A DNA stretch of 64,000 bases from Dacryopinax spathularia (lineage: Eukaryota > Basidiomycota > Dacrymycetes > Dacrymycetales > Dacrymycetaceae): contig JBBPFI010000005.1 of the NCBI GenBank assembly GCA_037974965.1, forward strand, positions 248,001 to 312,000. The letters run 5' to 3'. This document shows, piece by piece, positions 41,201-60,390 of this stretch (within the stretch, counting starts at the first letter, position 1; every line of letters begins with the position of its first letter). A program made the translations under genes and the position numbers. The notes under the pieces were generated by a model. It was given only the letters and a program-made list of their open reading frames with translations. It was not told the DNA's origin and ran no database searches.

Positions 41201-41374
41201 GCTGACGCTGCAGAGCGGCCGGATATGAAGACGGAGCGGTCTGATTTCGCGGTTTGGGTGCGCATGGCAGCCGGAGATGATCCGCCTCACCCACTTTGCA
41301 AGGCTGGCACGACACTGGACGAAGCTTTCCTGGCCTATCGCTGTACCAAGGAAGGGAGAGACTATAACGCGTAG
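38286..41374 (+). CDS. orphan 930-residue protein, function unknown
   Basis: I do not recognise this family. Seven exons join in frame: 38286-38623, 38682-38734, 38781-38837, 38873-38935, 38984-40252, 40312-40515 and 40566-41374. The first 400 residues are disordered and Ser/Pro-rich. The ordered middle contains YGELIIYLKEKDTKMVVWG, RPLVYIRRDYHSKLILKDFKV and, past an intron, VLWKDFLPALRQEKCMVVGF with an HVPLPGTDAFPYH stretch. The last 250 residues include a basic KRAKKAKGGK patch that could be a nuclear signal. Junction doubts: intron 1 could instead use a GC donor at 38620, intron 3 is only 35 bases, and intron 5 could end at 40326. Confidence 0.68.
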
Positions 41375-41929
41375 CGATATGTCTCGCAGGCCGCTTCTGT
41401 ATTTTACCCGTGCTATTCGCTTCCCTCTTCGCTTCCCATTGATCCGTTATGTGTCATCCTCACTGTTCCTAGTTATTCTTACGTGCTCGGTGCCATCGAT
41501 CGCTGTAGGTTCTGTGTACTCCTGGTGACTGTTCAAATATGTCGTATAGCCTGTATGTTGTAATGGCTTCGTGTTTCAATTTAAACGAGCGCATATACTG
41601 CGTACGACTGGCGCAGAATCTGAGCTCGTCCCACTGCGCAAGCGCTTCCAGGATCGCGGTAAGCTCGTGTCCGCTACTAAAGGATGAAGAGTGTCCCCTC
41701 TTCCGTACCAACGGATTGAACGTTCATGTAGAGTCGTGTATTGAAGTCTTGCTGCCTGTCGATCTCTGCAGAGGTCCAAGAGCAGCCAGCCGCCTCTTAA
41801 AAAAACCCACCAAGCCCTCGGATATCCGAGGGTCTGTGCGACTAATTGATATCAACCCACACCACGCGCGAACGCGCGCATCGCATCTCGCTCCTGATCA
41901 TCAACATCATTCCTCATTCCTCCACCAGT
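41375..41929. other. intergenic region with one TTGCTGCCTGTC repeat
   Basis: About 550 bases without a gene; the dispersed repeat copy at 41734-41776 is listed separately. Confidence 0.5.
41734..41776 (+). repeat. dispersed short repeat, copy 1
   Basis: It carries GTGTATTG, AGTCTTGCTGCCTGTC and the palindrome CTCTGCAGAG in order. The same order recurs elsewhere in the 41-60 kb block. Confidence 0.75.
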
Positions 41930-43486
41930 ATGCATCGTGTTTTCTGTATACCAGAGGTCCTAGACATGATCATCTCCAACGCAGCACAGAACAAGGCCAC
42001 TCTTGTCAATCTGGCAGGCACTTCTCGACTGTTTACAACTCCCGCTCTGTTTTATCTGTGGAAGGACTTCACTCCCGCACACATGGACGCGCTCGTTCGC
42101 ATGCTCCAAGAACCCCGTCTATCTCTCACGCATATATCCACCGTTCAACACCAGACTGTAAGTCAGCCGCATCAAGCATCAGTAACGCGTGATCAATCCA
42201 TGTGCCGATAGCCTTCGCACGTTGTTCAGTACTATACTGGGCTGGCACGGAGCCTCTTGATCGACATCGACCATCCCCAGGTAGCAGCGCGTTTTCAAGA
42301 GGCACTCCTCACCATTCAACAATCATGCTGCGGGATGCAGCTATTTACCATCTCCAGAGACATCCGCCTCGTCTGTAAATCACCGACGCATCTCGACATA
42401 GCTGTGTTCCTCTTGCGAAGGGCTACGCAGAGCCTTACCCTTTCAGTGACCTCGGGGGAGTATGATTGGGGTGACGCTGTTACACCGCTATTCGCTAGAG
42501 TGTCTTCGGTCTCGAACCAGCTGCTTTCGCTTTCGCTTCAAGGCCCCTTTGGCAAGGTTTTCGATACGCCGGACTGTCCATCTCTGTTCGGGCGTCTTGT
42601 ACCACAGCTTCAGTCGCTTCAGTACCTGGAAGTTATTGGGAGTCTAATCTCGCCCTCCACTCTGCAGGCTCTGTCAAAACTTTACCAACTGCGGCGACTG
42701 GCAATCACATATGTGCATACGATCGAAAACGACTTGCTCGTTTCGCATGAGCACGGTCCAGGGGACGACTGCTTTCCCTCTTTGGAAGAGCTCGCACTAG
42801 AAGGCTCTTGGGAAGGATTCGGGCAGATGATGTGTCTTTTTCGTGGCCTGGTAACAAAACTTGAGCTGAAGATTCGAGCGCACTCTCCTGAGAGCTTCAC
42901 TGTGACTGATGTAGCGGGCATGGTCGGACGACATTACCCGTGCTTATCCTATCTCTCCCTCAAGCTTTATGCCCCCTCAAGAGGATGCCATCAGATCACT
43001 TGGATGGACTTCGCAGCACTGTATCTTTGCTCGGGACTGCTCACATTGGACTTGATCCTCGATCTGAACGTCCTACTATATCTTCAAGATGCTGATATTC
43101 GTACCATGGTCGAGAAGTGGACGAATCTTCAATCCCTGTCTGTCACCTGGCGAAGATGGCCTCATGGACTCCATCGTGCGTGTCGACTCACCTACCAAGG
43201 GCTCATCGCCTGCTCAGCAAAACGGCCTTCTCTCAAGCGCGTAAGCCTTACTCAATTGGACTTCACGGACGATTGCACTCCTGTAGAAAGCGGGGCAGAA
43301 TTGCGGGAGCTGAATGTACAGCATTGCATCATACCAGGCTATCAGCAGCTGGCATGCCTCCTCTTTTTCGACACACCCTATCTCGTTGTTCAAGGGCTGC
43401 CTCCCGATGCCGCCCGTGCTGTTCGCAGTCGTCACTCCCTCCTGCGCCGAATTCGTCGCTTGTGGACTGGTCGCAAACCCGCATAA
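41930..43486 (+). CDS. F-box protein with leucine-rich-like C-terminal half
   Basis: F-box proteins bind Skp1 and select targets for SCF ubiquitin ligases. Exons are 41930-42157 and 42212-43486, with a 54-base phase-0 intron, giving 500 residues. The F-box is at about residues 6-46, with IPEVLDMIISNAA, LVNLAGTSRLFTTPALFYLW, the typical Agaricomycete form ending in a conserved Trp. The rest has irregular leucine-rich strands (QLLSLSLQG, LQSLQYLEVIG, YLSLKLYAPS, LQSLSVTWRRW) that suggest an LRR-like solenoid. The target is unknown. It is the first of three F-box-like genes in the accessory block; it is not closely similar to the other two. Confidence 0.8.
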
Positions 43487-43680
43487 CGAATCAACGGCAA
43501 CATCGATAGGCTAACACCCGATCGATAGAAGCCATGACATGATGGAAAAAGAACTTTGACGCTTCAGGACTCAGGTAATATACTGTACCGTACTGCACCA
43601 TTAGTCTGATATCAAGAAGTATAATAGTCGAATAAGAACACAGCTGACCACCAACATGTGCTACACAACGAGTCGGTCAC

Positions 43681-43718
43681 TTGTATTGCAGTCTTGCTGC
43701 CTGTCAGACTCTGTAGGG
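43681..43718 (+). repeat. dispersed short repeat, copy 2
   Basis: TTGTATTGCAGTCTTGCTGC is followed by CTGTCAGACTCTGTAG. It agrees with copy 1 over about 35 bases. Confidence 0.75.
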
Positions 43719-43770
43719 ATGGGGACGAAATAAAACCTTGCGCGTTCACTTGAGAACGAGCCGCGGGCCC

Positions 43771-43813
43771 TGGGCACTGCAGTCTTGCTGCCTGTATATC
43801 ACTCTGTGTGGGC
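43771..43813 (+). repeat. dispersed short repeat, copy 3
   Basis: CACTGCAGTCTTGCTGCCTG is followed by a diverged end. It lies 90 bases after copy 2 in the same direction. Confidence 0.65.
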
Positions 43814-44176
43814 AGGATACAGGCCCGGCAAACATGCACTCCTGGTTTCACCGCCATACTCGGGTGCGTAAGTATAAAGACTGACCGTAGGCGACGCGAA
43901 TCCGCTCAACTGCTTTGACTTGTTGTACAACAGGCACGTAGCTAAAGGCTCAAGGTCGATCGGCGAAAATTTGCGTGGGCTAATGTAGCCTCTTAAGCTT
44001 ACCTCAGTGAGCGAGTCGTCTCCCTCTCCCCTTTCTGTACCGGGGCCTTACTCCGCGGTAAGGGTCCTGGCGTCGCTTCTCGTTTCGATCGGCTTCGGGC
44101 GTCCTCCATCTTCCTTCTGGCGTCCTTATCCTTCCTCCTACCGTGAGACTAGTCCTGCAACAATTCAGAGCATACC

Positions 44177-45777
44177 ATGAGGCCTCGGCAAACCGGACGT
44201 GCAGCCAAGGCGTTAGTGGATTCGGCGCTAGCTGTGCTCGCGGCTTGGCTAGAAGAACGCAGTGATGAGGAAGTGCTGACCTCAATGGCAGTACAATGTA
44301 GCCACTGGCTTCATATCGTGGCTGCAGCTCGTTGGAGGACTCTCGATGATAGGAATATGAATAAGCTGGCGCGCTTGCTGCTCTCACGCTATGGAGGGGA
44401 AGTTGTTAATGGAGAATCGCGGGTGCGCGGGCCTCCCTGTCATACAGTGTACTCATTCTCTAACCACCTTCGTCTTATTCGGACTAGTCGAACCTTCGAG
44501 CTACCATGTACGCATCTATGGTCAAGCACATCGACATACGGGTAGCCAAAGCTTTCGACGGGTTCGAGGAGGATCCTATGATCACAACGCCCATGTACGG
44601 TCCCATCTTCCCGAACGTCACCTCCATCCGCCTACGCTTAGAAGACCCATGCGAGCTCACTCTAGCGACTGCCTGGATCACCGAATCTGTCACTCAGCTG
44701 GATGTATGCGTCTCTATGGAAGTGGGTACAGGCGATGAGTGGAAGGACAGTGTATCTGCGCTGCTCAGAGCCCTAAATGCACATGGTGGGCCGCTGGAGC
44801 GATTGCGCGTGCAAGGCATCCGGTTTATTCAAGATCTCTTCCCTGAAGATCTGGCGGCAACAGTCATCTTCCACTCGCGTCACCTGAAGGACCTCCGTAT
44901 CGATTCTGTCGCGATTAATGACGACATGCAGTTCGCGCTCAAGCACTGCGAACAGCTCAAAAACCTGGTGGTCTACCAGTTCGGACCATACATCGATTTT
45001 GCTCCAAGCCGCTTCGTAGGCGATCGTTCGCTGATGCCCGACTTGGCAATAACTCTTCATGGCAACGTGAAGAGATTGCTCTGCATGATGCACCATATGC
45101 CCGTACAACCCGGCGAACTGAAGCTGGACTGCTGGGTGCGCTCTTCGGCTATGTACTATATCGCCCAGCTGCCTTGGACAGCGATTTCATGCTTTCCTAC
45201 ACTCAAGTGTCTCACGATTGTGCTCGCTCTAAAGTCGGATTTCAACCAACTGACGTCACGTTTGAGGTGGAGGGACATCCATCACGCCTTGGCTTGTCAA
45301 GGAAGCCTCCAGAAACTCACGATAGATGCCCGCGGATTACATGCCTTGGAGATCGATGATGACAATCTGTCTTCATTCGTCCAAAGTATGAAGAACTTAC
45401 GGGAGCTACGCTGCCTTTGGCACAATGACAAACAACTGGACCCCGACCCCGAGCTGCAAAAGATACCAAGGTTGACACTGACTGGCATGGTTCATCTCGC
45501 ACAGATTGCCGACTGCCTCGAGTACGTTCATGTCGGGCATATGAATCTCTGCCACTTTCCGCGCGCTTCCCCTGTGTTAGCGCCTCACCGGCGACCTCTA
45601 CATGTTCGTACTATCACCGCGCAGACGGGAGGCACTTTCCGTACTGCCATGGTGCTTCTATCACGACCACCTTACCTCGAGCTAGAAGTGGACGAATCTG
45701 AGGCTTGCAAAATTGTGACGGAGGCGATGACATACCTCGAAGCGCAGCGATGGCCCCGGTGCTTGGGTTTCAACTGA
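44177..45777 (+). CDS. F-box-like protein, plus-strand member of an inverted paralogue pair
   Basis: Exons are 44177-44446 and 44488-45777, with a 41-base phase-0 intron, giving 519 residues. The N-terminal 85 residues (AWLEERSDEEVLTSMAVQC, WRTLDDRNMNKLARLLL) resemble a drifted F-box; no clean F-box motif can be claimed. The body has leucine-rich-like repeats and a shared C-terminal block, HVRTITAQTGGTFRTAMVLL. The gene at 50.4-52.0 kb on the other strand matches it along the whole length (MYASMVKHI against LYASMVKSI, IAQLPWT against IAQVPWT, LWHNDK against LWHHGL), with the intron at the same place. They are clearly duplicates that have drifted far. Confidence 0.75.
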
Positions 45778-46293
45778 GCGGACTCGTCAACCGTGGCTGG
45801 TACAAAGTGCTGTGGAGGGTGTATGAAGGTTCATCGGGAGCCTAAGTAGATAGATCGTATCGAGTCGTGCATGTCTGCGAACAAGCCATGAAGTTGATGC
45901 TTACGCAGAATACTCGGCAGAATGATAAGGCAGGGGTCATCACGTGAAAAGGCAGAGGGCGCAAAGGTGTTCATGTGGCTCAGGTCGCTCACCTGGATCA
46001 TGCTGTCCATGCGGTCCTTCTGTACATGGAGGCCACAGCGGCCTTTGGACATCGACCACCGACCATACGGTTTTCTCGTTCATCTCGACTACACCGTTCA
46101 TGGAGGCTTATATGCCATACTGACGCCGTCACCTCGGCGCCGCAATGGTGTTTATCTTCACAAACTAACATATGAGTGCCCCAATGGCGTGGCGCTCACT
46201 CAATCGCACAATTGTGATGATGTGCATGCATTCATAAAGGGACAGGGCATTGAACTAGAAAGGGGTATGACGCCGGCGTATAACACAATCACG
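45778..46293. other. convergent intergenic region
   Basis: About 515 bases between the F-box-like gene and the kinase gene, which point at each other. Nothing was recognised. Confidence 0.4.
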
Positions 46294-48044
46294 CTAAACA
46301 CCCGATAGGAAGGGGTTCTCAAGTGCCTGCGAAGGAGATGGTCTGAGTTTAGGATTGTACTGAAGCATGGGTCGAATGAAGCCTAGGAAGGCATCGCGGT
46401 CCGCCTTCGACATGTGAGGAAGATCGGTCTCCACCCGTTCTTCAAGCGGTCCGCCTGGTACGTCGATAGCCTTGCGCAGCCGTCCTGTAATTGCGGTCAG
46501 TTGGAAGGGAGCGACCCATTGAACAGATCCATCACCTTCACTAGTGAAAAAGGTGTCATAGAAGGCCGCATGATCAAAAATGCCGCGGGGCAGTGGTCCA
46601 ATCGTCTGCTGCATGGCTGCAAGGAGATAATCTTCAGGATAATAATCCTTTGTCTCCTGTGGCATGTGCAGAACAGAACCAGTCACAAGTTCGTAAGCCT
46701 GGCACGGCTTCGTCAGCGTCCATCCGAGTTAAGGGACCAATTTGGGGCTTATGAGGCACGCAAACGCCCACATATCAATCTCGCAGTCCCACGGAGCGTC
46801 TAACAGCACCTCCGGAGCTCGCATAGGGAGTGATTGAACCTTGCCTCTCTGAGGACCTTTTTTGCGCCACACCGCTAAGAGGGCACCTATCAGTAATGGG
46901 GCTGAAGTCATTACTCGCTCGCACGCACCTGTACTGAAATCCGTAAGGGCGACGGAGACAGTGGCAAAATCGACGGGAGCCATGAGGGGCTCGGATGGCA
47001 TAATAGCGTACTCGTGAGGCGCTTCTGGCAGAGTGATGATCTCGAGGGGCTCGGGAGGTCCTGAGCTGAGCAGCGTCCGTACGAGAGGCACTTTCTCCTC
47101 AGGTTTCGGGATAATAAGGATATTATCAGGCTTGAGATCTGTATCAACCGTCAGCTGCGACACCCAATCATCATTTGAAACTCACCGGTATGGATGATTC
47201 CGCATTCTAAAAGATAAGCCAGCGCGTGGAGAACGTCTTTCAGGATGCGCTTGATGGCACTCAAGGGGTATGTAGCCACTTCCTTCCGTTCTAGCTGCTG
47301 ACCCAGTAACTCGAACACCATACACAAATGATCTCCGAAGAGACTGTGATGTACGAAGCTCTTCTCGAAGGCTGCAATATGACGGTAACCAGGGTGCTCG
47401 GGATTTTGATCCCGAACACGGGTCAAGAACGCAACCTCGGTCTGCCGAGAACGGCGGATAACTCTGTCCGCAGTGGCCACTTTGATCGCCTTGAATGCAG
47501 TCATGTCATCCTTATCTCTGTATACTCTGTGAGAATGGTCTCGGAGCCTGAAGTCGACCACTCACTTTGTATCCCGAACAAGGTAGACTATCGACGTCGT
47601 CCCCCACCCGAGCTTCACCAAGACGAAGTACCGGCCTCCCGGTCCGAGGCGATCTCGCGTGGCCAGGGGGGCGTACCCGCCTTTCCTGTAAGCGTGCGTC
47701 GGTTCTTCTCTCATACGGCTGAGCAACCAATCGCCAATGTCGGATTCAGAGTCGGAGTCCGACTTCGCCTCAGCCATATCCACATCCTCGTCAGTGGATA
47801 TCCAATCGGCGTCCTCGTTGTCCTCCACGCGCTCACGTGAAAGAGGGCGGTCGCTCGAGGTAGCGTCCATTGACAAGTGATTCTCCCGCGCCACGTGACC
47901 AGCGCCCTCTGGGTCTTCCACAGTCCTCTCGGGGGAGACACGAGGGCTGATGGAGGAGACGGAAGAGCCAGACTCTTCACGTTGTTGCGGGGGGGAGGAG
48001 AAAGGCGACGGCTCATCCGAATGAACTGAAGACTCAGACATGCA
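46294..48044 (-). CDS. SRPK-like protein kinase
   Basis: SRPK-type kinases phosphorylate Ser/Arg splicing factors. Exons from the first in-frame ATG are 48044-47566, 47517-47186, 47138-46929, 46886-46738 and 46698-46294, giving 524 residues. The open frame goes on for 70 codons upstream without an ATG, so a first exon may be missing. An acidic Ser/Asp-rich leader ends in RKGGYAPL, the SRPK entry motif, followed by GRYFVLVKLGWGTTSIVYLV. K172 in KAIKV, D271 in HTDLKPDN and MRAPEVLL are in place. DFG is DFS (D337) where SRPKs usually read DLG. Two introns are doubtful: a 42-base one after DFSTG keeps frame if retained, and a 39-base one follows FACLI. Confidence 0.72.
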
Positions 48045-48918
48045 GGAAGAACCGGAGGCGTGTGGGGCATGAAACTGGCCTTCGCATTTAGGAATATCGA
48101 ATCTCTCGACAAGCGGGGTGTCGCCGGCATGACCATTGACGCGATCACCAGGCCAATCCTGGGGATCGCCGCAGGTGTCCTCGGACGCGCGTTCGGGTTG
48201 GATGTTTCCACACTCGACGACTGTGTCACACGCATCGGTAGTCCAGCGAGACACCTCACCTACGACATGTCAATATTGTGAATACAAGCAGTGGCGAGTG
48301 AAAAGACCCACTGGCGGCACCCTCAGAAATAATCATATCTGCTTTTATAAGAGTCTGTTGAGATGCGAAAGGATTGTGCACTAAGGTGCTACGTGGATGA
48401 GCGGGGACTTTGAGAGGGGTCTGGCGGGCGGTTGGGGCATGTGCTGATATATGCTCTGCGCTCCTATGACCTGTGCAAACGGGGCACCTCGGGTAAGCAG
48501 GTTCCGCTAGCACGTGGAGGGAAGGCTGGTGACGCGAGACGCCCCCTCCATTCCCCCGTTCCATTGTTGTTTCTCATCTTCCACCTTGACAGCAACGCTC
48601 CTCTGCCGTCTCGATCATATAGACGTTCCCCATCAGCCCTCCCACCTTCCAGTCGAATCTATGCCACGTCAACGACCCGGTCTCCATGGTTCTCGCCGCA
48701 ATCAACAAAGGGCGAGGGAACCCTCGGCCCACTAGGGCCTCGTTTTCGGCGCGGGCCCGTGCTTTCATTGCTTCGCGAAGCTGGACATCGCCTTCGCCAT
48801 GAGGCATGATGACTGGACAAACCAGTTTTTCGCACCTACTATCAAGGCATAAAGCACCCCCCCGCCTTTGCGTATCGAGCAAGCCAACGTCTCTCTTCCG
48901 CCTCTGTCACTCAACGCC
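48045..48918. other. divergent upstream region of kinase and acidic-tail genes
   Basis: This holds the promoter sides of two divergent genes. The first 210 bases extend the kinase reading frame without an ATG and may be translated. No other gene was recognised. Confidence 0.4.
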
Positions 48919-49911
48919 ATGGCTCCTCGTCGCCGTACCTCGAAAGCGCAGCGCGCGGCACTGAACGACAATTGGACGAAGGACAACGGCAAGGACGCCG
49001 TCCCACTCCAAGGTGCCCATGCTGTCCCCGGCGCCGCCACCTCTTCTCCGTCCGGCACTGCTCCTCCTTCGGTTCCGTCTTCGCCCACCATGCGGGCCGT
49101 GAACTTCCCCCTCCCCCAAGTCAGTGTTGATAAAGAAGATCCTGCCTGGTGGGCACAGAACCAGCGTGTCGCGCAGATGCCATTGTCGGCAAGGAAGGGC
49201 AAACCTGCGCCTATCAAGCCGGGTGAGAAGAAGACGTTCTCCAAGGGACCGCCCGTGTTCCACAGCCTGGAGTTTTACAGGCGCGCATGATTCCATTCGC
49301 GGCGTCTATCATATTCTGAAGGACACCCTAGCAAGGACGGGAAGACCCGTAACTATCTCCTGGGGGTGACAAACAACTGGTCGCTCGTTCGCCTTCGCCG
49401 TGACGAGAACGGAGTTTGGTGGTATGAATGGACCAGCAGGAAAACCGGTCGGGTGAGGAGGGTTAACGTCCATGAAATCATCATCTGGTCCGTAACCGGG
49501 GCCTTTGCTTTCGCTCACCTACTTACCTCTTCGTTTAGCTCGTCCGTCCATCGCTCGAAAGATCCAAGGAACCACATTACTGTGGAGTTGCGCACGGGGC
49601 GCAAGAACCCGCCTCGCGACCACATTCCCACTCCTTGGGTTCCAGGCCTGCCCAAGGAGCGCTTCAGAAGCCGTAAGTATAAGCCGCGCAAGCAGAAGGA
49701 GGACGCGGTCGTGGAGGAGAACGAGAACGAGGCGGAGAAGGAGGGCGAGGAGGAGGAGGGCGAGGAGGAGGAGGGCGAGGGCGAGGAGGAGGAGGGCGAG
49801 GGCGAGGAGGAGGAGGAGGAGGAGCAGGGCGAGGGCGAGGAGGAGGAAGAGGAAGAGGAAGAAGACGAGCCCGAGACCGAAGGTGAAGCCGCCGCGGAGG
49901 AGGATGAGTAA
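48919..49911 (+). CDS. basic protein with poly-Glu C-terminal tail, function unknown
   Basis: Three exons (48919-49280, 49332-49487, 49539-49911) give 296 residues. The start is basic (MAPRRRTSKAQRAAL). The middle is ordered, with DPAWWAQNQRVAQMPLSARKGKPAPIKP and, after intron 1, NYLLGVTNNWSLVRLRRDENGVWWYEWTSR. The last 75 residues are almost all Glu with some Gly, written by a GAG/GAGGGC minisatellite. Intron 1 needs a rare GC donor at 49281, or a weaker GT donor a few bases upstream; intron 2 keeps frame if retained. A basic head with an acidic tail suggests a chromatin or histone partner, but no domain supports that. Confidence 0.55.
49739..49868 (+). repeat. coding GAG/GAGGGC minisatellite
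   Basis: An imperfect purine repeat of GAG triplets broken by GGC encodes the poly-Glu/Gly tail of the gene above. The bottom strand reads open as poly-Ser and poly-Leu, which is an artefact of the repeat. Confidence 0.85.
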
Positions 49912-50123
49912 GGAGAGGACAAAGAGTCTGGATCGGGAGGGCCCGGTACGTCTAGTGCGACAGTTCAATCACCTCTGCGCTAGCTCTTGCCCTCACTGAA
50001 CGACATCCGCCATCACCTTACGACTATCTGTTTCTCTTATATCGAGTGTTAGCAGGAAAATGAATTGTGTCTTTTGCGTTTCTCAGAGATCACATTGATC
50101 GTCCCTACCAGCGCATTTGCAGC

Positions 50124-50192
50124 TCTGTAATGTAGTCCTGCTGCCTGTCAATCTCTGCAGAGGTGGAGCGTGAGCGAAGCTTCAATGTGCAG
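50124..50192 (+). repeat. dispersed short repeat, copy 4 (about 63 bases)
   Basis: It starts TGTAATGTAGTCCTGCTGCC, has the palindrome CTCTGCAGAG in the middle, then GTGAGCGAAGCTTCAATG. It aligns with copy 5 along its whole length. Confidence 0.75.
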
Positions 50193-50249
50193 AGACGCCA
50201 AATCAACCACCAACACTCCTCGATGGGCGTCTCCGCGCCTATGCAGCCG

Positions 50250-50312
50250 TGTATTGTAATATTGCTGCCTGTCAACCGCTTCAGAGGTGAAGCATGAGCG
50301 GAGCTGCAATAC
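50250..50312 (+). repeat. dispersed short repeat, copy 5, with inverted ends
   Basis: The unit opens GTATTGTA and closes GCAATAC, so its ends are inverted repeats of about six bases. Inside is a GCTTCA-GAGG-TGAAGC hairpin. It is a direct repeat of copy 4, about 126 bases away. Confidence 0.75.
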
Positions 50313-50405
50313 GCGTAGTAGTGTCCAGGACATGCACGGCTGGAACAGACAGCTTCAAGTCTATAAGCTTCTTCCTACAGGAACGATTCTACGCAGGCAC
50401 ACGCT

Positions 50406-52003
50406 TCATCTCGAAGCGTGGCTTTCGTTGTACTCCAGCGCCTTCGTGACTTCTGCGGCTGCCTGAACCTCATCTACCTCGATCGTGATATTCGACGGGG
50501 TCGCAAGAAGAACCATGGCTGTCCGAAACCAACCAGCCGTGGCAGCGGTCATCGCGCGAACATGCAACCTGCGCCCCCTAACGGCGACACCAGGAATAAC
50601 GTCTCGCAAATTGCGGAGGTCCAAGTGTCCGACATATAAACGTTCCAAGGTACTCGCGCACTGTGCCACATCGACCATGCCGAGCCATGACAATCCCCCT
50701 CCTCTCGGCCTCAAAGCGCTCAGTCCATGATGCCAGAGGCAGGTGAACTCCCGCAGATGACGAAACCTGCTAACGAAATCGCGCATTTCGTCATCGGTGA
50801 TGTGAAGAGCCGACAATGCTCGGCAATCCAGAGTAAGTGCTTCCAAGTACTCTTGACGGACGGTGTGCTGGAAGTCCTTCCATAGCAACGGATATTTGAT
50901 GACTCTGATACCATCGTAGGTCTTATAGATGAGTGATAAGGACCGAAGGGAACGAAAGAACCACATCGTGGTCCAAGGCACCTGTGCGATATAGGGCATA
51001 GAGCCGGCTTTGGCGAAGCATTCGAGATGTAGCCTGGCTGGTCGGCCTACGAGTCCCTCCATCATGGACAACAGTCCCTCCATCATAGCCAACAGTCCAT
51101 CGACTTCGCCACGTAGCCGCCAGGATAGGCAATGTGTACTGTCCGGGGCAGCGCTCTCGCTGGGCTCGATGTTGTCAAACGGTGCGCCTTGATTGACAGC
51201 CAACTCCTCTAGGTCGTCGCAGCGCCCCAGAGCGTTCATCACGGCTTCCGAGAGCATTGAAGATTCGCTGTGAAATTTCTTCAGGCAACGAGACTTGCAG
51301 ATGATTAAGCGAGCCAGAGCTTCGGTTTCCCGATACGTGAGGTTGCTAAGACCACGGATGCACAAAATCTCGAGATGGTAGCAGCCCAAGGCGAGCTCGC
51401 CGAGGAAGACGGTGTAAGCATGGCGCCAATCGGAGGGAACGCCCTTCATCTCTAGCACGTTGATGTGAACCTCGACGAGGCCTTGTGTGATCCAGCTGGC
51501 CACCAACCAGAAATCTGTCGGTTGGTCCAAGCTAACACGCATGCAGCGGAGAGCACCGAAGAGATTGCCATACAAGGCCTCCAGGACCGTCGTGCGACTT
51601 TCGAAACTCTGAAAGGCTCTGCTGAACGAGATATGGATGCTCTTGACCATAGACGCGTACAGGATGGCTCTTTCCTTCGAAGATTGGGGACAGTGAGTAA
51701 TTAATGAAGGCGGTTGGAACAGGATCAATAACGCACGGGACCGCCTCGACCGGTGCTCGCGTCCGCCTCAGTAGCTAGTACCAAGCGTGCCAATTGGTTC
51801 ATCTTGGTTTCATCCACCGTCTGCCACCGGACTGCGAGCACGCAGCTCCACCAGTCCCTGCATTGGATGGCAAGTCGGCTCAGCACTTCCTCATCACCCC
51901 GTTCGGCTAGCCAAGCCGCGACCACAGCTATAGCCGCTTCTCTCCTAGATCCACTGAGTTGACGCGCGTTCGAGTCGCAAGAGCATTCACTGTCCCGGCT
52001 CAT
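50406..52003 (-). CDS. F-box-like protein, minus-strand member of the inverted paralogue pair
   Basis: Exons are 52003-51737 and 51674-50406, with a 62-base phase-0 intron, giving 511 residues. It matches the 44.2-kb gene end to end, including the degenerate F-box-like N-terminus (AAWLAERGDEEVLSRLAIQC), YASMVKSI after the splice, and RRLHVRAMTA with GWFRTAMVLL near the end. A 24-base tandem duplication gives GLLAMMEGLLSMMEGL (near 51052-51100). The start at 52003 is chosen to match the paralogue; the frame is open to 52150. The function is probably target recognition, inferred only from the leucine-rich-like pattern. Confidence 0.75.
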
Positions 52004-53323
52004 GATACTAACTTGACAATCCGCCGGGGGATGCATAGAAGGGGTACGAGTATGGTAGTCGAAGGAAGCGCCGACAACTGAACAAAGGTGAGCTACGTGA
52101 ATATAGATGGGCAAGCCTGGTGGAGTGAAAGACCCTAGGGACGAGGGCACTCTATATATGTCACCTGCCGGCTGATCAGATTCTATCCAATTCCGCCACG
52201 GACGTTAGCTTGAGACTGGCAATACGTGGAGGAATTCTTGTGTTCTGCGTCTGACTGGCAAACGAGAGAGACCGTGACTGTCAACCGAGGACATTGCTGA
52301 AGAAGGGGCGGGAGGTTTGTCAACCTCTGGTTCCCGTTTCTGCTTCCCTTGCCGACGTTGCGATAGCGCTTGCCATGATCGTCTTCTCGTCTCCCGTCGA
52401 AGCACTCTGTCCTTCCGCTTGCACAGATTGACACACTAGTACTAGGCATCTGCGTATCGTCGATCGCCAACGATCCGGGTGCCGAGCTTCTAGTCGGCTC
52501 GATTAGTCAAGCATCCTTCCAGACCAACCGGCTGAGGGTTTATTTCCGACCATCTTAGACGTGAGAAATACGCAATTTGCTTCTCAGGCGACACACTGAT
52601 ATTCCGCAGCAGAGCTTCTTTGGCAGACCACAGTTGATTCATCACCATGTACGAAGCCGTCCTCGTGGACGGTACGGCCTGGCTGTCAAAGCGATCGACG
52701 GATATCCGTCCATGTCGTACTCCCCGACCATGGCAACCATCGAGCTCGGCACCTGGGCGCTTCTCCTGACTTCCGATTTCCGCCCCTCTGGGTTCTTTTA
52801 GAAGCCGCTAGTGTGCCCACCGGCCGGACGTGCTTCTTTTACCCCTGCTTCGGCGTCTGATGCACACGTGTGCCCGCCTGCACCCAGGGATTTAATGGGT
52901 GAAGGTTTCACGCGATCTTTGCCTATTTACCGAGACTCGGCGGGGAACGGAGGATGAGATGTTGCTAGAAGCTCTGAGCGATCTAGGCCAGCCTTACGTG
53001 CTAGAATATACACACTTATTCTCGCTGTTTCCTGATTATGATTAGGAGAATGGACTCGCCTTCGCATTCTGCCGAACCAATCGCTACGCGTCTCGGTGCC
53101 TTCCTTCCTCCGTACAGCGATATGGAAAGGAAAGAAGTGTGTCCAAGCCTGTGCGTCCCGCTAGATCCGTCGGAGGAAGATGCGAACACCGACTTGGGTA
53201 TCTGCCTGAGGTAGCGCACCGGTCTGCTGGTTTAGTCACACTCGAATCATTATACAAGCCCCGTCTTTGTCTTCCCTTAAGCATGCAGAAGAATATGATT
53301 GTCTACGTAAGGGTCACTCGAAG
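52004..53323. other. 1.3-kb intergenic region
   Basis: No motif-bearing frame was found. It should contain the promoter of the minus-strand F-box-like gene. A 75-codon plus-strand frame at 52577-52801 has no supporting feature. Confidence 0.4.
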
Positions 53324-54892
53324 TTATCGAACACGATTGAGCATGCGCAGATAGACCTCCCATGTACCGTGCAACGTCAGAGAAGGAGATCCCTCCGCTT
53401 CGTACAGGTCTGAACATAGTTTCTCCATGGCGTCTGACACGAATTGGAATAGGCCTGCCGGAGTATGCTCCCTCAATAGCTCGTCTACATGTTCAGCGGG
53501 AACAGGAATTCGACAGTCTTGCATACCCCAGCTCTCGGGGTGGAACCAGAACTCATCTGGGGAGTCGCCTGTCGGAAGATGGACACGTTCTTGACGGCGA
53601 ATCTTATGCGAGTTCGTTTCTCGCATGTACTTGTCCAGCTCGCTCTGCACAAGTCGAGCCCACAGCCACCTCGCTATCGAGCTGGTGCACTGTCAGTATC
53701 ACGAGGAGAAATGAAGCGAGAATCGCACAACTCGAGCTCAAGGGCTGCGTGATAAATTCCCGCTCGCACTCCCACATCCCAGACTTGAAGTATCGATTCG
53801 AGCAGGTCCTCGTATAGGTATCTCCATGAGCGTTCGATGGTGATATTCCAGACTGATCGTATCTGTTCGAAAGGGGGCAGCGCCCGTGCGTCAAGGCCAG
53901 GTGCAAATTGAAGGCTGTTGTCGATCGTCAGCTAAGCACTTTGATCGCGAGCCTTGGGTAAGAACGCACCGTAGCTCGGTCTGCAGCCGTCCTAACAGAC
54001 CGCCTTCAGAACCTTGATCCAGCGTGACGCGAATGGGTACTCCTATTGAGTATTTCATACCACTTCAGCGAAAAGACTGGCGCTCGACCATCATGCTCAC
54101 CGCCTTCTTTTTTGACCGCATGAAGAAATAGCGTTGCCGGGACGACCTGAAGGCGGGAATTGGGTACTACCCACAATCCAAGAAGGCGCCGGGTCGCTTT
54201 ATCCCGAAGACCCCATATTTGCAGCATCATACGGGCGAGTTTGTCGTGACCATCTCCGCTCCACTCCTCACTCGGGCCGAGGGACCATAAGCTACTCCGA
54301 TGTAGTCATCTACCTGCTTTGGGGGCTCGAGCACGCGCGTTGCCCTCGTCCAAAGCGGAAAGGAATCGGCGAACGAACTGGCTGCTGCAGTTTGAGAATG
54401 TAGTGAAGACTAGGCGGGAGAGAGACGCACCTGTTGGCGTCTTGCATGTTTTTATGCAGCTTCAACTTGTGCAATACGCGCCCGCGTCCCCATCTGTTAA
54501 GCACATCGTCTTCCAGGAGCTCCACAATAGCATTGCCGATCTGCTCAGAAGAGTGCAGGGGTCGTCGAGCTGTCGGAATGCTAAGACGCTTCATCCATTT
54601 ATACAATGTCCGTATTCTTTCTCACATGACATAGATTAGCACCAGCCTCACGATTCACGGAGAACTTACCCGATATGAACATTGTGCTGTTGAGCGAGAT
54701 CGCGGACCATCTGTTCTCGCGTCAGCCCAAGCTGTACCATGCTGTTCAGCAGGCTGCGAAATTGCCCCAATGCCTCATTGGGCACTGTGGAAGTCTCAGC
54801 GACAACAAACATTCGGATGTAGAGCACTTACCGCACTGTCCTCCGTACTGATTTCGTCCTGTAGGATTACGGGCATAGGAAAAGGAAGCCAT
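53324..54892 (-). mobile_element. intron-bearing DDE integrase-core gene, probably transposon-derived
   Basis: The order of parts on the minus strand is a helical, HTH-like start (ATG at 54892; REQMVRDLAQQHNVHIG, then TLYKWMKRLSIPTARR), an integrase core, and a conserved tail (HPESWGMQDCRIPVP). The three acid blocks are present in order: WSGDGHDKL near 54241-54263, IRVTLDQGSE near 54004-54030 and IERSW near 53825-53845. This resembles the integrase-core proteins found in many Agaricomycete genomes. Several 45-60 base introns separate the blocks. I see no terminal repeats, gag or reverse transcriptase, so the parent element is unknown. Whether it is whole was not settled. Confidence 0.65.
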
Positions 54893-55315
54893 GGTCGAGT
54901 ACACGACAACCTTGGAGCTTGCTGTCCAGCCAAACGAGCCGCGAGACTGACAAGTGCCGGAGTCGCCAAGCTTTAGCAGACGGCGACAACTCGAGTAAGC
55001 GGAACACTTCCACGAATTGGGGACATCGTGTCAAAGAACCGAATTTGGGGGCTAACCACTCCGTCGATCTCCATCCTTCACGATTACGTATCGGTTTCAG
55101 GCGTTCCAGGAGACTCCATCGATAGCGGTGACACGGAAAGAGACAGGCGCCGGTAATGCGGGACCAGCTCGAGACGCGCTGAAAGCACTGAAAGAAGATG
55201 AGTACCGAAATGAAGGTATCGCTCCCGAAAGGTGCGATATTGCTGCCTTGATCCGCAGCTTATCTGTTACGTGAAGACACGCTCCCTCGCTCCTCCCTGA
55301 GATAAGCCATCTGGG

Positions 55316-55358
55316 AGTCGTGTGTTGAAGTCTTGCTGTCTGTCAGTTTCTGCTGAGG
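55316..55358 (+). repeat. dispersed short repeat, copy 6
   Basis: AGTCGTGTGTTGAAGTCTTG is followed by CTGTCTGTCAGTTTCTGCTG, one or two changes from copy 1. Confidence 0.7.
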
Positions 55359-55390
55359 CAAGCTGGATAATAGTGTGATGCTTCCCTGAC

Positions 55391-55433
55391 AGTCTTGCTG
55401 CGGTACGATGTCTTGCTGCCTGTCAATTCTCTG
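55391..55433 (+). repeat. dispersed short repeat, copy 7 (rearranged)
   Basis: AGTCTTGCTGC is followed within 20 bases by GTCTTGCTGCCTGTCAATTC, so the core is present twice, as after an internal duplication. Confidence 0.65.
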
Positions 55434-56084
55434 GGACGTAAGAACGCCTCGCCGAGGGGAAAGCGGAAGCATGAGGATACAGTACACTGGAAGGGGAAGA
55501 AGCCGATCATCAGACCCTGGCCGGCCGCTCCCCGATACAACCCACAGATCAGGGTCACCGATGACGCGGGTCCGGAAGCAATGTACCCATGGACGCTGTG
55601 GACCATCTGCGGTGAACGATGCTCGCTTGTTCGATATGTACCGTGGCCGGAGAACGGGATATGCTGTGGACGGCAACAGTGGTTCCATACACTGCAGGAT
55701 TGCTCTTCGGCTGTTGCCTTCCCATACGTTCAAGATCACCGTCATACCACAAGCCGATCTTGAGGAGCGATCATCAGGCCGCTTGATGATGAGCAGTCTG
55801 TTGCGCTTGCTACTCCAAAGGCTGGCGGCGTTCTCCTTACCACTCTTTGATCGCCTCTCGACCTCTCCTTTCAAGATGGCTTACCAGCAAATTCTCACTG
55901 TCTCTTGCGCCTGTCGCTGGCGAAGGCCCGGATGCATCAGTCAGCTCTCTCTGGTTTCGCACCGCGTTATTAATGTTGGCTTGCTGGGAACCAGTGTAGC
56001 AACCTCCCTTTCAGAGCCCCGCCAACCCCATTCCCCCTCACCATCTCTCGCTGGACGACCACGACTTTCAGCTTGCCATCCGCT

Positions 56085-58455
56085 ATGGATCCTTTTGAGG
56101 GTATCTGTAAAGGATGCGCGGTGGAATACCGATTCTTGCAAGGATCCTACTGTTTCGGTTGCAAGCCGCACGTGGCACAGGAGACGCACCCGCCATCCGT
56201 ACCCTGCTCGGGATGCAGTCGTACCTTTCACTATTTACAACAGGGTAAATGGTGCGGAACTTGTGAACGGAGAGCGAATGCGCCTAGTATGTCTTCGTAT
56301 TACTGCTGAGGCTTTTCGTTGACGTTGGTATAGATACAGATGCGCGCTCTAGCAAAGACATCGGTGCTGGAGTTAATACCGGCGAGCGACATACGGGCAC
56401 GGTAACCCTGCAACTTACTCTCTTGAATATCCCTTTGACCCTGCTCACAGACGGTGTCCGTGAACGGGCAAAGAGATATCTCCAAAACAACTCAGGAAAC
56501 GCTTGCCAGGATGGTTGCCACCTCTTCGCAGGCGACCGCTCGTTTCTTAAAAGAAGGTGGTGCTGCACCGGCCAAAATACGCACTACGATGGCGGGTCCA
56601 CTTCAGACGATGAAGATGCGATATGTGACCATCAAGGTATATTGATGCTCCCTGAATAATGTCACAAGTGCTGATCACTGACGCAGGTAACCCATGTCCA
56701 TAGCATGCCGAAGAAGGCTCTTATCGCCGGTATTGTACTGTCCGACAAAGTTGCCGGTGACAGCTCCTGGTCGGTGGTCCGCGACGGGCTATTGGAAGCC
56801 CTCGATTCAAAATGCCGATCGAGGCATGTCGTAAAGACTCCCATTGTTCGGTAGGTCCGCCACAAGTTTTGACGAGCGGCACTTAAGCACTGGTCTAGGG
56901 AAGCTACACAGTTTCTTCTCGCAGAAAGCAATTGTGATTTTCTCGACAACTCCGAAGACGGGACCGTCGATCACTTATGGAATATGCATACGGACCCCAA
57001 ATATCAGTACGACCATGTCGCTCAGAGGCATGTCGTTACACGGACTTTAACCCTCAAGGCTCTCGTATGGTTTCCTGGGCCATTTGCAGAGGCGGCAAAA
57101 AATCAGTGCATCTATGTAAGCTGGACTCTTTGACTCTTGTGAATCTCCAATAATTCCTTCACAGCGAGGAGAATCTGCGGATGAAGATATAGTAGGACTT
57201 GATGACGCACAGCGCTTCGAGTCTATATCGACTCTGCCCTCTATGCGCAGCGCAATGTCCTCGTCTCTCCGTAACCCGAGCCGTCGACTCCGAGCCACTC
57301 CGAAGGCAATATCCCCACGGCGTGCCACTGCGCGCTCTTCCAAAGAGGGAATGAAGTCATCAACAGTGCTACCTCCGATGAAGTCAACAAATAAGCTTGC
57401 GACAATGTCCATTAGCGACCACCTGCCGATGGGACCCAGATTCTACAGCTCCGCCGTGCAGCAGGCACACAGCTACGTCGTGGAGGAGTGGGGAGTGGAG
57501 CTAGATAGTGAGGATTTTCAGCCGGTGCTCTTCAAAAAGAGCTTGCAGCCCTTCACGATCTACATGCAAGAGCGCGCTTTCGCTCGCGGCGCTATGAAAG
57601 CTGCGTACAAGGTGCGTGTATATGCCATTGATGCGGAACAACACCTTTGATTTCCATGGAGATGCGGCACAAGGACGAAAACAGGGTCGATTACCCCTAT
57701 GCAGCGAAAGCATTGTACCGAGACGACACGGACGAAGCGCCTAGCGCATACAGCAATAGGTCTCACCTGATCCAGGAGCTGGTACGGACAGAACAGATGC
57801 GAGATATCTTGACGGCCTTCTTCATGAGGTGTGCCTCGCACGGTGTGGAACCTTACCGTGAGGGCTCATTTTCGGTGGACGGGACCCGCTGGCTGATTGT
57901 TGCCTTCAGCCTTCTCCGTCGCCCCGTCTTCTGTTTATGAAGTGGTTCTACCTCCTCATCAGGGTCAAGCTTGGCTCGTAGAGGCTTTTTTGGGTACCGA
58001 TGCTCCTCGCAAGTTTTCCGGCACGGACCGGGCAGGCAATCACACAGACACAGATCTGCCTGGCGCGACAGCCGATTGCTTGGCCCACTTCTCCCTTGTA
58101 CATACTGGGGGTACTCTGGTGCTTGTCGATATCCAAGGTATAACGTTCGCATTTCCTCTTTCTAGTGATGGAGTGAACTGATAGTGTGTACGTCTAGGAA
58201 TTCGATCCAACCCTTCTTCTCGCGCGGGACAAGGGGGGAAAATTGTCTTGTTTGATGTGCAAACCCATACGTGCGTGTCGGGAGCGCATCTGGTCAAGCC
58301 ATCATCATTAACTGCACAATAGACGCCAAGCAGAGAGCGGTCTAGGCGATCTTGGCCCAGAAGGAATCGACACCTTCGTATCCCAACATCGTTGCGGCAG
58401 GATGTGTGAGGCAATTCTCTTGGATCAAGCGAAAATAAGGTTGGGAGGACATTGA
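56085..58455 (+). CDS. alpha-type (MHCK/eEF2K) protein kinase with N-terminal double zinc ribbon
   Basis: Alpha-kinases are atypical Ser/Thr kinases. Ten exons (56085-56286, 56334-56401, 56451-56636, 56687-56850, 56899-57115, 57165-57611, 57662-57857, 57910-58137, 58198-58270, 58323-58455) join in phase to 637 residues. Two CxxC-x11/12-CxxC modules (C8, C11, C23, C26; C41, C44, C57, C60) lead the chain. A Ser/Arg linker follows, then the kinase: ARGAMKAAYK with K428, PRKFSGTDRAG, HFSLVHTGGTLVLVDIQG with D567, the glycine loop GLGDLG (600-605), and the zinc site HRCGRMC (616-622). All key residues are present, so it should be active. Alpha-kinases are expanded in several mushrooms. Confidence 0.9.
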
Positions 58456-58523
58456 CGTGCAGGGCTCTTGGCTGATGAATATATACTAGTCCCGAACCCG
58501 GCGCCGTTCACGCTCTCGGAGAT

Positions 58524-59594
58524 ATGAGTACAACTCCTCACAGAGTGCGGAGTTCCAAAGGCAATATTACGGACTTGAACTCAGGCCATTCGCCCTCCCC
58601 GTGCCACATCCCACAGGGCCAAGCATCTCCTGAGGAGATCTGTGCACCGTGAGTTCCACTCGACCTGTGGTGTATTGACTCATTGCCTGGTATAGACCCA
58701 CGCTGTGCGACATAGGCTTGTTCAAGTTGTCAAACAAGACTCATTTCGCTCCGGCGGAGGTTACTTCGATCGATCTTATCAACCATACAGTTACGTGGGA
58801 GTGGTGCTCGTGCGTCAAATGGCCTGCCTCCAGCCCCAGACACGAACGGTTTGTGAAATCGTTCACCGAGAGTGCGAACGCCATGAAGCGTGACATTCAT
58901 AACAAGAATACAGTGCGTTGGTTTCCCTGTCATGTTCCCTCTCTTACGCCTTTCCCAGCTGGTGAAGCTACTGTGGCCGGCGCAGCTCACGTCCAAGAAT
59001 AAGTCTTGCCCGATGGACGTCCCTCTCGCCGAACAACTACACGCTCATACTGCGGAGGTGGCTGGTATCCTCTGTGAATCGAAGTCCCATCCGGTCATGG
59101 ATGAATGGAAGACTTTCTTGCGGACGACGACAGAGCCAGGAATCAAGCAAGTCTTAAATGAGTCTGAATGGGTAGTGCAGCAAGAGGTAAATCTGTACGT
59201 TCACGAACGGGACTTGGTTGTGGAATGGTTGGCGGGCTCGGTGTCGCTGGCCTGCAGTCAAATCCACCCCGCCTGGACCTCTGAAGAGCTCCGCCAGGTT
59301 TCCATCGGTCCAGGATTGGTCCTCGGGAGCTATGCCATGGCGCTATGCCTTCTGGACGTACAGCAAGAGAAGCAAGACTTGTGGTCGATCCACGAGCATC
59401 GGCATGCACTCCGAAGGCACCCTGCGCCTCAAGTCTTTCGCGCTTGGGACGTAATGAAGAATGCGTATGCTCCGGTATGTATGCAAGAGGATGCTTTCAA
59501 AAAAACGCATCGTTGCACCCAAGCGGACCTGAACGTTGTCGTTTACGGCTTCTGGTTGGGGGAGCCACAGCCAGATACAGAGATAGCAGTTTGA
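58524..59594 (+). CDS. orphan 325-residue protein, function unknown
   Basis: Exons are 58524-58648, 58696-58912 and 58959-59594, with introns of 47 and 46 bases; the phases agree. It starts only 68 bases after the alpha-kinase stop, in the same direction. The chain has mixed, soluble composition, with TVTWEWCSCVKWPASSPRHE in exon 2 and a helical C-terminal half (QQEVNLYVHERDLVVEWLAG, VVVYGFWLGE). No domain is recognised. It could be a separate gene or a tail exon set of the kinase, but the in-frame kinase stop argues for separate genes. Confidence 0.6.
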
Positions 59595-60390
59595 ACCAAC
59601 TGTCGTATCGTAGTTCTTCCGTATGATTCAGCGAGCGGCTCTATTATGCGCCGTGCGAGCAATATAGCGTTTTCGTTTTCGTGCCATCGTGCCATCTTGC
59701 TGTGCACCGTGCAGAGCAAGAATCGACTGCTGTGCACTGCCGCTTCCAGCCCTGCAGAGGTTGACAGGCAGCAAGACTACAATACACAGTCGACACGGCA
59801 AACTTCTCTGGCCGCCGAATGCCATGACGTAAGGCGTAGGCCTGGCAGGACCCTTGACTACCGTGGATTTAGGCTTGACTCTTGCGACCATTGTCTTTGG
59901 GCATAGGCTGATATAAAGGTCGGAGTAATAAGACTACTAGATGAGCCGAACTTGACAACCTCTTGAATGCTGCGAAAGGGCGGGAGACGAGAGCAAGTGC
60001 GAGCTTGCGAGGGCATATTCTGGGATTTCATCCTTGTATGTGAGTGTCGTCCGATCCCCACTAACAGTGTGGTTGCTCAAACGCGATTAGAATGGGAGGA
60101 TCTAAAACAGAATTTCATCGCAGAGCGCTTCCCTTCAAAGAGCCCCGCGTACGAAATCACATATGCGTGTATATGAATCAATAGAGGCACCTGCAATGTC
60201 ACGGAAGGGGTGGATTGCATCGTGCAGTCCGCGCTAAGCCGCGGCGTAACATGGGTGACACTCGAGCGGTGACTTCGTCTTCAAGGCTCCTGCACGCTCG
60301 ATCACTGAGTCCACCGCTACACGACGCCGGCACAAGTACTGGACGATAACAGCTCAACTATTACTGTGTTACTTTCGGACACGTTACGCT
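59595..60390. other. intergenic region with one inverted repeat copy
   Basis: About 800 bases without a supported gene; it contains repeat copy 8 in the opposite direction. Confidence 0.45.
59750..59793 (-). repeat. dispersed short repeat, copy 8 (minus strand)
   Basis: Read on the minus strand it gives GTGTATTGTAGTCTTGCTGC then CTGTCAACCTCTGCAGG, the closest to a consensus of all copies seen. Confidence 0.8.

Follow-up and report, generated by a model that had tools for sequence, protein, structure and literature searches.

A short intergenic repeat shared by two giant IS3EU-like elements of Dacryopinax spathularia is a candidate element-specific cis motif

A short repeat is seeded between neighboring genes in the 64-kb stretch of Dacryopinax spathularia DNA analyzed here (the window), raising the question of what kind of sequence it is and why it sits where it does. 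The first-pass annotation had reported at least eight copies between 41.7 and 59.8 kb, all intergenic, and none in the first 41 kb. A search for TTGCTGCCTGTC with up to 1 mismatch returned 8 copies in the window, 5 of them exact (41749+, 43694+, 43785+, 50138+, 50262+, 55333+, 55413+ and 59763-), compared to a mean of 0.36 and a maximum of 2 in 100 shuffles of the window. All 8 map between genes, as reported. A profile of 51 positions (R1), derived from 12 copies that include 7 of the window's 8, gave these copies scores of 18.2-46.8 bits and the next best match in the window (position 33530) 7.2 bits; absence from the first 41 kb therefore holds for full copies.

The repeat consensus is ~50 bp long and asymmetric, consisting of GTGTA-TG, the core TCTTGCTGCCTGTC, 1-3 bp, and CTCTGCAGA. 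The shared order of boxes described in the first-pass annotation stands for the consensus but not for exact boxes in each copy, since GTGTATTG, CTCTGCAGAG and CTCTGCAG are present in only 3, 2 and 3 of the 8 copies, respectively. Inverted GTATTG/CAATAC ends ~62 bp apart were found, as described, in one copy (1/8, at 50262). Left-half fragments of the repeat also occur at 55391 (+), 60522 (-) and 38288 (-), and copies 4 and 5 align with each other over ~87 columns, indicative of local doubling. Counts of 12-mers alone are insufficient to pick out this motif: the left-half 12-mer has 9 copies in the window element described below, barely above the best 12-mers of control DNA (7-8), and on contig C17 the repeat's 12-mer variants share their rank with GTGATGTGA-type repeats from a local array. 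The motif emerges instead from the profile, from the boxes on its flanks and from where its copies lie.

All 8 copies reside inside a giant transposon bounded by terminal inverted repeats (TIRs), which occupies positions 37974-61503 of the window (23,530 bp; Table 1) and corresponds to what had been termed an accessory block. The suggested tie between the repeat and mobile DNA was thus confirmed, while the idea that the repeat is itself a transposon tip was not, as the element terminates in different sequences, at 37974 and 61503. Alignment of the ~40-bp TIRs scored 25, compared to a maximum of 17 in 40 shuffles. The element contains a divergent gene pair, one integrase-type and one alpha-kinase, together with seven other genes, three of which are F-box/LRR-like. 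Gene bounds were drawn from open reading frames (ORFs) and cross-element homology rather than transcripts, and the spacer counts given below hinge on these bounds.

Table 1. Features of the giant element in the window.
Feature	Position	Strand	Remarks
Target-site duplication GGACGGG, left	37967..37973	.	Identical 7 bp adjoins both element ends
Left TIR	37974..38013	+	34/40 identical to right end
Gene 0, at least 2 exons, model incomplete	38971..41374	+	Homologues in C17 element and third element
Repeat copy 1, spacer gene 0-A	41730..41780	+	R1 45.8 bits
Gene A, F-box/LRR-like (FboxA)	41912..43486	+	LRR_14 match E 0.0017, under cut-off; C17 relative 45% identical
Repeat copy 2, spacer A-B	43675..43725	+	R1 40.0 bits
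Repeat copy 3, partial, spacer A-B	43766..43831	+	R1 18.2 bits
Gene B, F-box/LRR-like by appearance	44153..45777	+	C17 relative 46% identical
Protein kinase, SRPK-like	46294..48269	-	Pkinase E 3e-22 (joined exons)
Gene H, basic start, acidic tail; model approximate, incomplete	48853..49911	+	ORFs and homology
Repeat copy 4, convergent spacer H-C	50119..50184	+	R1 46.8 bits
Repeat copy 5, convergent spacer H-C	50243..50308	+	R1 41.9 bits
Gene C, B-related	50406..52204	-	36% identical to B; C17 counterpart
Gene D, integrase/transposase-like, rva_4 (PF24764)	53339..54900	-	5' end approximate
Repeat copy 6, divergent spacer D-E	55314..55379	+	R1 39.7 bits
Repeat copy 7, divergent spacer D-E	55394..55459	+	R1 29.7 bits
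Gene E, alpha-kinase (PF02816), ends approximate	56060..58178	+	E 2.2e-11 (joined exons)
Gene G	58697..59594	+	7 genome loci, D gene about 4-5 kb from each
Repeat copy 8, spacer after G	59728..59793	-	R1 44.6 bits
Right TIR	61464..61503	-	Pairs with left end
Target-site duplication GGACGGG, right	61504..61510	.	Perfect 7-bp match to left one

Gene D matched the PF24764 integrase core with an E-value of 1.3e-10 (41.7 bits, cut-off 26, joined exons) and has 7 main loci across the genome. The 35 matches listed from a genome search with PF24764 all fell at other loci and at 0/7 of the D loci, where the domain is split by introns. The protein kinase is one that we take to be of the SRPK type. Gene 0 had no Pfam match over the cut-off and gene B no match in the Pfam search; gene A gave no match to an F-box profile, its F-box label reflecting appearance. 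Pfam and PDB searches returned nothing useful for gene G, while gene H lacked a Pfam match and had a best PDB E-value of 0.037. Single-sequence folds of H (pLDDT 48.8) and G (pLDDT 34.9) were too poor to use, and a DNA-binding domain was recognized in none of the element proteins scanned. When a 130-aa part of gene H was searched genome-wide, it matched only the window element and its relative on contig C17.

The C17 relative is 30,151 bp long and collinear with the window element over 9 genes, with exon matches that are about 35-84% identical. It has its own exact 7-bp target-site duplication (CTCGTCC twice). At a distance of 1.5 kb lies a paralogue of the insertion site that is empty and uninterrupted (84% over 1,554 columns) and bears a single CTCTTCC. 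In keeping with the suggestion that the repeat may mark DNA prone to duplication, the accessory block that it marks has a second version in the genome. The repeat is found in the same 5/10 spacers and in the same orientation in both elements, although the C17 copy between A and B is degenerate; counting clear C17 copies only, the 4 spacers that contain them are all among the window's 5 (4/4), and 4/4 agree in orientation. A weak match at C17:356540 (+; 10.0 bits) is in the opposite orientation, and the corresponding window spacer is empty. Spacer DNA outside the repeat is hardly alignable between the two elements. The repeat was the best cross-element DNA alignment in 2/5 occupied spacers (gene 0-A and H-C), but not in the other 3/5, and 4 spacer comparisons topped by non-repeat DNA also slightly beat their shuffles (20.5-25 compared to maxima of 17.5-21.5). 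Similarity between copies was higher within elements than between them (0.69 versus 0.58; p 0.0026 by 5,000 shuffles of the labels). Copies at corresponding positions (0.57, n=6) were no closer than the remaining cross pairs (0.58, n=24). Since copies resemble those of their own element more closely than they do their positional counterparts, they change in concert.

We likewise measured the distribution of the repeat across the genome. Two right-half patterns had 8/9 and 2/2 of their matches, and a left-half pattern 8/8, inside the two elements; reversed-pattern controls for the three gave 1, 0 and 0 matches. The sole outside match (C2:602635) is degenerate, with 3 mismatches, 12.5 bits and an E-value of 0.019. 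The longer patterns are thus confined to the two elements bar one match, rather than spread evenly through the genome. The proposed tie to F-box and kinase genes generally did not hold: the repeat was absent from 10 flanked loci of more distant FboxA relatives (L030-L035, L038-L041), from 4 loci of gene G relatives (L044-L046, L048), and from a complete third giant element, which has counterparts of genes 0, D and E by homology. A dispersed motif of the third element's own was considered and rejected, its best 12-mer having 5 copies compared to 7-8 in control DNA. A cluster on C9 (9.5 kb examined) contained a tandem triplet in one place and no dispersed repeat of this kind. Three small elements with the same end type (669, 670 and 1,178 bp; 6-7 bp target-site duplications) also lacked the motif (best score 6.7 bits). 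The repeat sample consists of two elements in one genome. CpG was not depleted in the elements (0.91-0.98, compared to 0.88-1.00 in flanks), nor did motif spacers differ, so that nothing here suggests methylation-driven decay.

Both the termini and the order of the genes suggest the IS3EU superfamily, despite target-site duplications that are mostly 7 bp. According to published descriptions, IS3EU elements have TA..TA termini and usually a 6-bp target duplication, and fungal TET-bearing families have TIRs >30 bp of the form TAYGG..CCRTA with an alpha-kinase gene opposite to the transposase gene (PMC10045372, PMC12730594). Similarly, 20/20 ends of the 10 paired TIRs identified here start with TAC, using a search pattern derived from the first-found ends with one mismatch allowed. 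The TIRs of the window element are of the TACGG..CCGTA form, while those of the C17 element differ by one base (TACCG). Genes D (minus) and E (plus) are adjacent, as are their homologues in the C17 and third elements. In contrast to IS3EU, the giant elements span 23.5-36 kb and carry about nine genes, F-box/LRR-like, protein-kinase and others included, and duplications at 8 loci were exact 7 bp (5), 7 bp with one mismatch (1) or exact 6 bp (2). Gene D matches the PF24764 integrase core, and is set beside IS3EU by description rather than by transposase alignment. As large, cargo-bearing fungal elements, these resemble the Starships of Ascomycota. Starship giant transposons use a tyrosine-recombinase captain, whereas the window element has an integrase-core gene with TIRs and a target-site duplication. 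No published giant IS3EU with such cargo, and no such fungal motif, was among the matches listed in a literature search whose scope excluded many journals and bioRxiv preprints; the sections seen of a giant-transposon review (PMC6431247) mention neither KDZ, Zisupton nor kinases.

Taken together, the findings discussed above lead us to favor, as the probable explanation, that the repeat is an element-specific cis motif whose copies are putative binding sites of a sequence-specific protein dedicated to the element. Such a protein would be encoded in the element or be a host factor captured by it, and would bind in several spacers, among them one convergent (3'/3') and one divergent (5'/5'). Through such binding, expression or chromatin state would be set element-wide and not promoter by promoter, in the manner of VANC on VANDAL. 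Since gene H parallels the repeat in its distribution over the two elements, it is the first candidate for this factor. Weighing against this reading are the lack of a recognized DNA-binding domain in the proteins scanned and of CpG depletion, the absence of the motif from the third element, the 3/5 occupied spacers in which other DNA aligned best, the thin margin of the left-half 12-mer over control DNA, the weak match at C17:356540, and the sample of two elements in one genome. VANC anti-silencing proteins are reported to bind noncoding motifs on Arabidopsis VANDAL transposons (PMC5735166, PMC10398659). Our repeat is like VANDAL motifs in being short, confined to the noncoding parts of one family and locally repeated, and in showing concerted change and differences between related families. 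It differs in transposon type and kingdom, in its few copies, and in its unit of ~50 bp compared to 8-9 bp. The likeness to VANC lies in this motif pattern, read here from sequence.

An ordinary shared promoter or enhancer element, by which a transcription factor of the host or of the element would control the cargo genes jointly from upstream sites, overlaps with the explanation that we favor but appears unlikely as an account of its own. A 5' end is present in 3/5 motif spacers, and possibly in the spacer after G (an uncertain further gene), with copies roughly 170-900 bp from those starts as estimated from the gene map. Nevertheless, the H-C spacer has two copies between two 3' ends, promoters also fall in motif-free spacers (SRPK-H, 5'/5'; C-D and E-G, one 5' end each), the SRPK-like kinase has no copy on either side, and genome pattern searches found no extended copies at host genes. 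A scan of one spacer for bacterial-type promoters and terminators gave nothing useful, and is not meaningful in a fungus.

We consider it improbable that the copies are internal integrase/transposase sites helping synapse a very long element. The sites are asymmetric, an integrase-like gene (D) resides in the same element, and left-half matches at 11/12 positions are found 0.3 kb and 1 kb in from the termini (38288 and 60522). Against this, the nearest full copy is at least 1.7 kb from either end, and neither the 3 small elements with the same ends nor the third giant element has the motif. The left-half matches at 38288 and 60522 are both on the minus strand and lack the other boxes. Equally improbable are small noncoding RNA genes or RNA hairpins in each spacer. 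Although folding was slightly more stable than in shuffles for 2/6 copies (z -2.1 and -2.0), the consensus fold of 11 copies reached -1.85 kcal/mol with a double change in 0/5 pairs, and Rfam (window 40000-61000, E up to 1) gave a single match, far under the gathering score and off the copies; an RNA element was rejected for lack of covariation. Finally, a tiny mobile unit or MITE spreading inside the block, as first proposed, is very improbable: within-element likeness of copies, local doubling, inverted ends on 1 copy and the weak copy-like match at C2:602635 agree with it, but the inverted ends do not recur (1/8), there are no further outside copies, and spacers and orientation are the same in two anciently diverged elements.

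In fungi, accounts of expanded gene families (F-box genes, kinases, unknown genes) often name no carrier. In this case the carrier is a TIR transposon with defined bounds and target duplications, whose sister also has an empty site, which gives the clustering of these genes a mechanical cause. Should an element-dedicated factor dock at the repeat, giant transposons outside plants would control their own chromatin or expression via private motifs, and the repeat would be a ready probe for that factor. Going further, and tentatively enough that we regard it as doubtful at present, giant fungal IS3EU elements might possess a private, element-wide anti-silencing or master-regulation system, VANC-like but of independent origin, in which H or another cargo protein binds the spacer motifs and co-evolves with the motif separately in each element lineage.

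We compared window 39.4-59.6 kb with C17:374.6-348.8 kb, a collinear block on contig C17 of the same genome, and found nine genes in common (0, A or FboxA, B, an SRPK-like kinase, H, C, D, E and G), with order and relative orientation kept. Exon matches between the blocks lay on the sense strand at about 35-84% identity; domain matches are listed in the table, and gene A weakly matched an LRR profile. Comparison of outer flanks revealed inverted termini around each block, bordered by exact 7-bp duplications. The nine-gene block is a giant TIR transposon carrying dispersed copies of a private motif, a finding that supersedes the first-pass annotation's suggestion that the repeat could be a very small mobile unit or the tip of a larger family. 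When joined at one duplication copy, the flanks of the C17 element aligned unbroken to C17:342875-344400 (84% over 1,554 columns; left 175/189, right 1,123/1,357 identical), with CTCTTCC present once at the junction; this segment is an empty-site paralogue of the C17 insertion. The same segment and the flanks of C17:345934-376084 form a direct duplication of ~1.5 kb, one copy of which is split by the 30-kb element.

A degenerate terminal pattern, derived from the ends found first, matched 27 places genome-wide, 20 of which formed 10 inward-facing pairs. Each of the 7 unpaired places carried a single mismatch, and the reversed control likewise totalled 7. Four pairs were giant (23.5, 30.2, 33.0 and 35.9 kb), while the remaining six spanned 0.59-4.3 kb (both ends read in 4/6) and are probably non-autonomous derivatives. 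Among the 8 loci with both ends read, which excludes C5:177869 (neither end read) and C14:733366 (one end read), duplications were exact 7 bp at 5, exact 6 bp at 2, and 7 bp with one mismatch at 1. The third giant element, of 35.9 kb, lies 3.8 kb past the right end of the window element, beginning 1,319 bp beyond the window; it contains genes 0, D, E and G together with F-box-like genes, and zero repeat copies. Gene D was found at 7 main loci, the same 7 clusters as gene G, excluding two short D fragments, on C15 and C8. At loci apart from these elements PF24764 (rva_4) gave 35 genome matches, the best with long open frames; this integrase-type family is therefore common in the genome. FboxA relatives at C9:1226243, C1:1522814 and C11:1065699 had near-equal score and length, and perhaps represent a recent dispersed duplication.

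Elements, domains and degenerate repeat copies
Feature	Location	Evidence
Window element termini	window 37974 and 61503	34/40 identical; duplication GGACGGG
C17 element termini	C17:345934 and 376084	duplication CTCGTCC
Third giant element	C5:313319-349184	duplication CACCCAT/GACCCAT, one mismatch
C1 giant relative, 33.0 kb (read in part)	C1:92086-125134	ends diverged; 7-bp duplication GTTGACT
Small/mid-sized element	C2:1024026-1025203	terminal-pattern pair
Small/mid-sized element	C6:142244-142912	terminal-pattern pair
Small/mid-sized element	C14:297371-298040	terminal-pattern pair
Small/mid-sized element	C14:733366-733961	terminal-pattern pair
Small/mid-sized element	C5:177869-178460	terminal-pattern pair
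Small/mid-sized element	C1:2692986-2697326	terminal-pattern pair
Pkinase domain	joined exons, window block	E 3e-22
Integrase core rva_4	joined exons, window block	E 1.3e-10
Alpha-kinase domain	joined exons, window block	E 2.2e-11
Degenerate C17 repeat, A-B spacer	L011 (part of C17):6766-6791	88% over 26 nt to left half of other C17 copy; R1 7.8 bits
Second degenerate C17 repeat, gene 0-A spacer	L011:8699-8722	R1 7.8 bits

We consider the giant elements IS3EU-like by published descriptions. Complete IS3EU families are reported always to show TA..TA termini, with duplications usually of 6 bp (PMC10045372), and fungal TET-bearing members have TIRs >30 bp, ends TAYGG..CCRTA, 6-bp duplications and an alpha-kinase oriented opposite to the transposase (PMC12730594). 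The elements agree in terminus, TIR and alpha-kinase orientation. However, their duplications are mostly 7 bp, the C17 element ends in TACCG, and their size and cargo go beyond the IS3EU descriptions consulted.

The first-pass annotation had reported at least eight copies of the repeat at 41.7-59.8 kb and none in the first 41 kb, and both observations held, the second for full copies. The core TTGCTGCCTGTC was present in 8 copies with <=1 mismatch (window 41749-59774; 0.36 expected from shuffles). A profile, R1, built from sequence alone on 12 copies (7 window, 5 C17; partial copy 43785 excluded) retrieved all 8 at 18.2-46.8 bits, everything else in the window scoring <=7.2 bits. The proposed order, GTGTATTG - core - CTCTGCAGAG, stood as a consensus, the outer boxes being exact in 3/8 and 2/8 copies, respectively.

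The window corresponds to C5:248001-312000 in a genome of 29.2 Mb and 24 contigs. Across this genome the exact 12-mer occurred 17 times: 5 in the window, 4 at C17:348-372 kb and 8 elsewhere (reversed control 1), the latter lacking the flanking boxes. The longer patterns are specific to the window and C17 regions, which held 8/9 right-half matches (reversed control 1), 2/2 of the short-spacer form (control 0) and 8/8 left-half matches (control 0). The sole right-half match elsewhere, C2:602635, had 3 mismatches and scored 12.5 bits with R1 (E 0.019), between true copies and background. No R1 match >=7 bits was detected in the whole third giant element, 3 small elements or 9.5 kb of C9, and the genome-wide patterns found none in the C1 giant element, itself read in part. 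No general tie to F-box genes emerged: of 21 flanked loci holding FboxA or G relatives, 7 belong to the two repeat-bearing elements and the third element, and the remaining 14, from more distant relatives, gave no R1 match >=7 bits (5/14 scanned at default filters only). Another F-box-like cluster, at C9:766941-767219 (L059:2941-3219), carries three tandem copies of a different sequence, 77-101 bp apart.

The repeat occupies five of the ten spacers between the window element's termini (gene 0-A, A-B, H-C, D-E and G-end). Clear copies are present in 4 of these in C17, with a degenerate one in A-B, and all orientations correspond; a contrary match at C17:356540 (+) (10.0 bits, E 0.032), in the C-D spacer within a ~200-aa ORF, was excluded from the count. 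This spacer is ~1.2 kb in the window element vs ~6.7 kb in C17, where L010:2347-5161 (C17:355.8-358.7 kb) holds about a dozen GTGATGTGA..GGTGTCGGAC-type repeats in both orientations. The H-C spacer is flanked by two 3' ends and D-E by two 5' ends. Cross-element spacer alignment is poor outside the repeat, which was the best alignment in gene 0-A (23.0 vs a shuffle maximum of 18.5) and H-C (25.5 vs 17.5). In the other three occupied spacers it was not the best alignment; A-B scored 13.5 vs 19, D-E 22.5 vs 20 and G-end 25 vs 21. Two motif-free spacers also rose slightly above the shuffle maximum, B-kinase at 20.5 vs 17.5 and kinase-H at 25 vs 21.5. Copies are locally doubled at 50138/50262 in the window and as a D-E pair in C17.

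Among 11 aligned copies (excluding window copies 43785 and 55413, degenerate copies and same-spacer pairs of one element), similarity over 52 columns was 0.69 within elements vs 0.58 between (p 0.0026), while positional counterparts (0.57, n=6) were no closer than other cross pairs (0.58, n=24). The places of the repeat are therefore old, and its wording changes in concert. CpG content gave no sign of methylation decay, and fold analysis did not support RNA structure of the repeat.

The places are conserved with or without promoters, the motif is element-specific and its change is concerted; this fits copies that may be docking sites at which a putative trans-acting factor, dedicated to the element, would bind. 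The same set of properties is reported in VANDAL transposons, a likeness of pattern rather than homology: VANC21 and VANC6 targets are short motifs in intronic, intergenic and terminal noncoding regions that form tandem repeats and differ among related VANDAL families (PMC5735166, PMC10398659). Gene H, confined to the two motif-bearing elements and adjoining the two-copy H-C spacer, co-occurs with the repeat, which, with two elements compared, hints weakly at where such a factor might be encoded.
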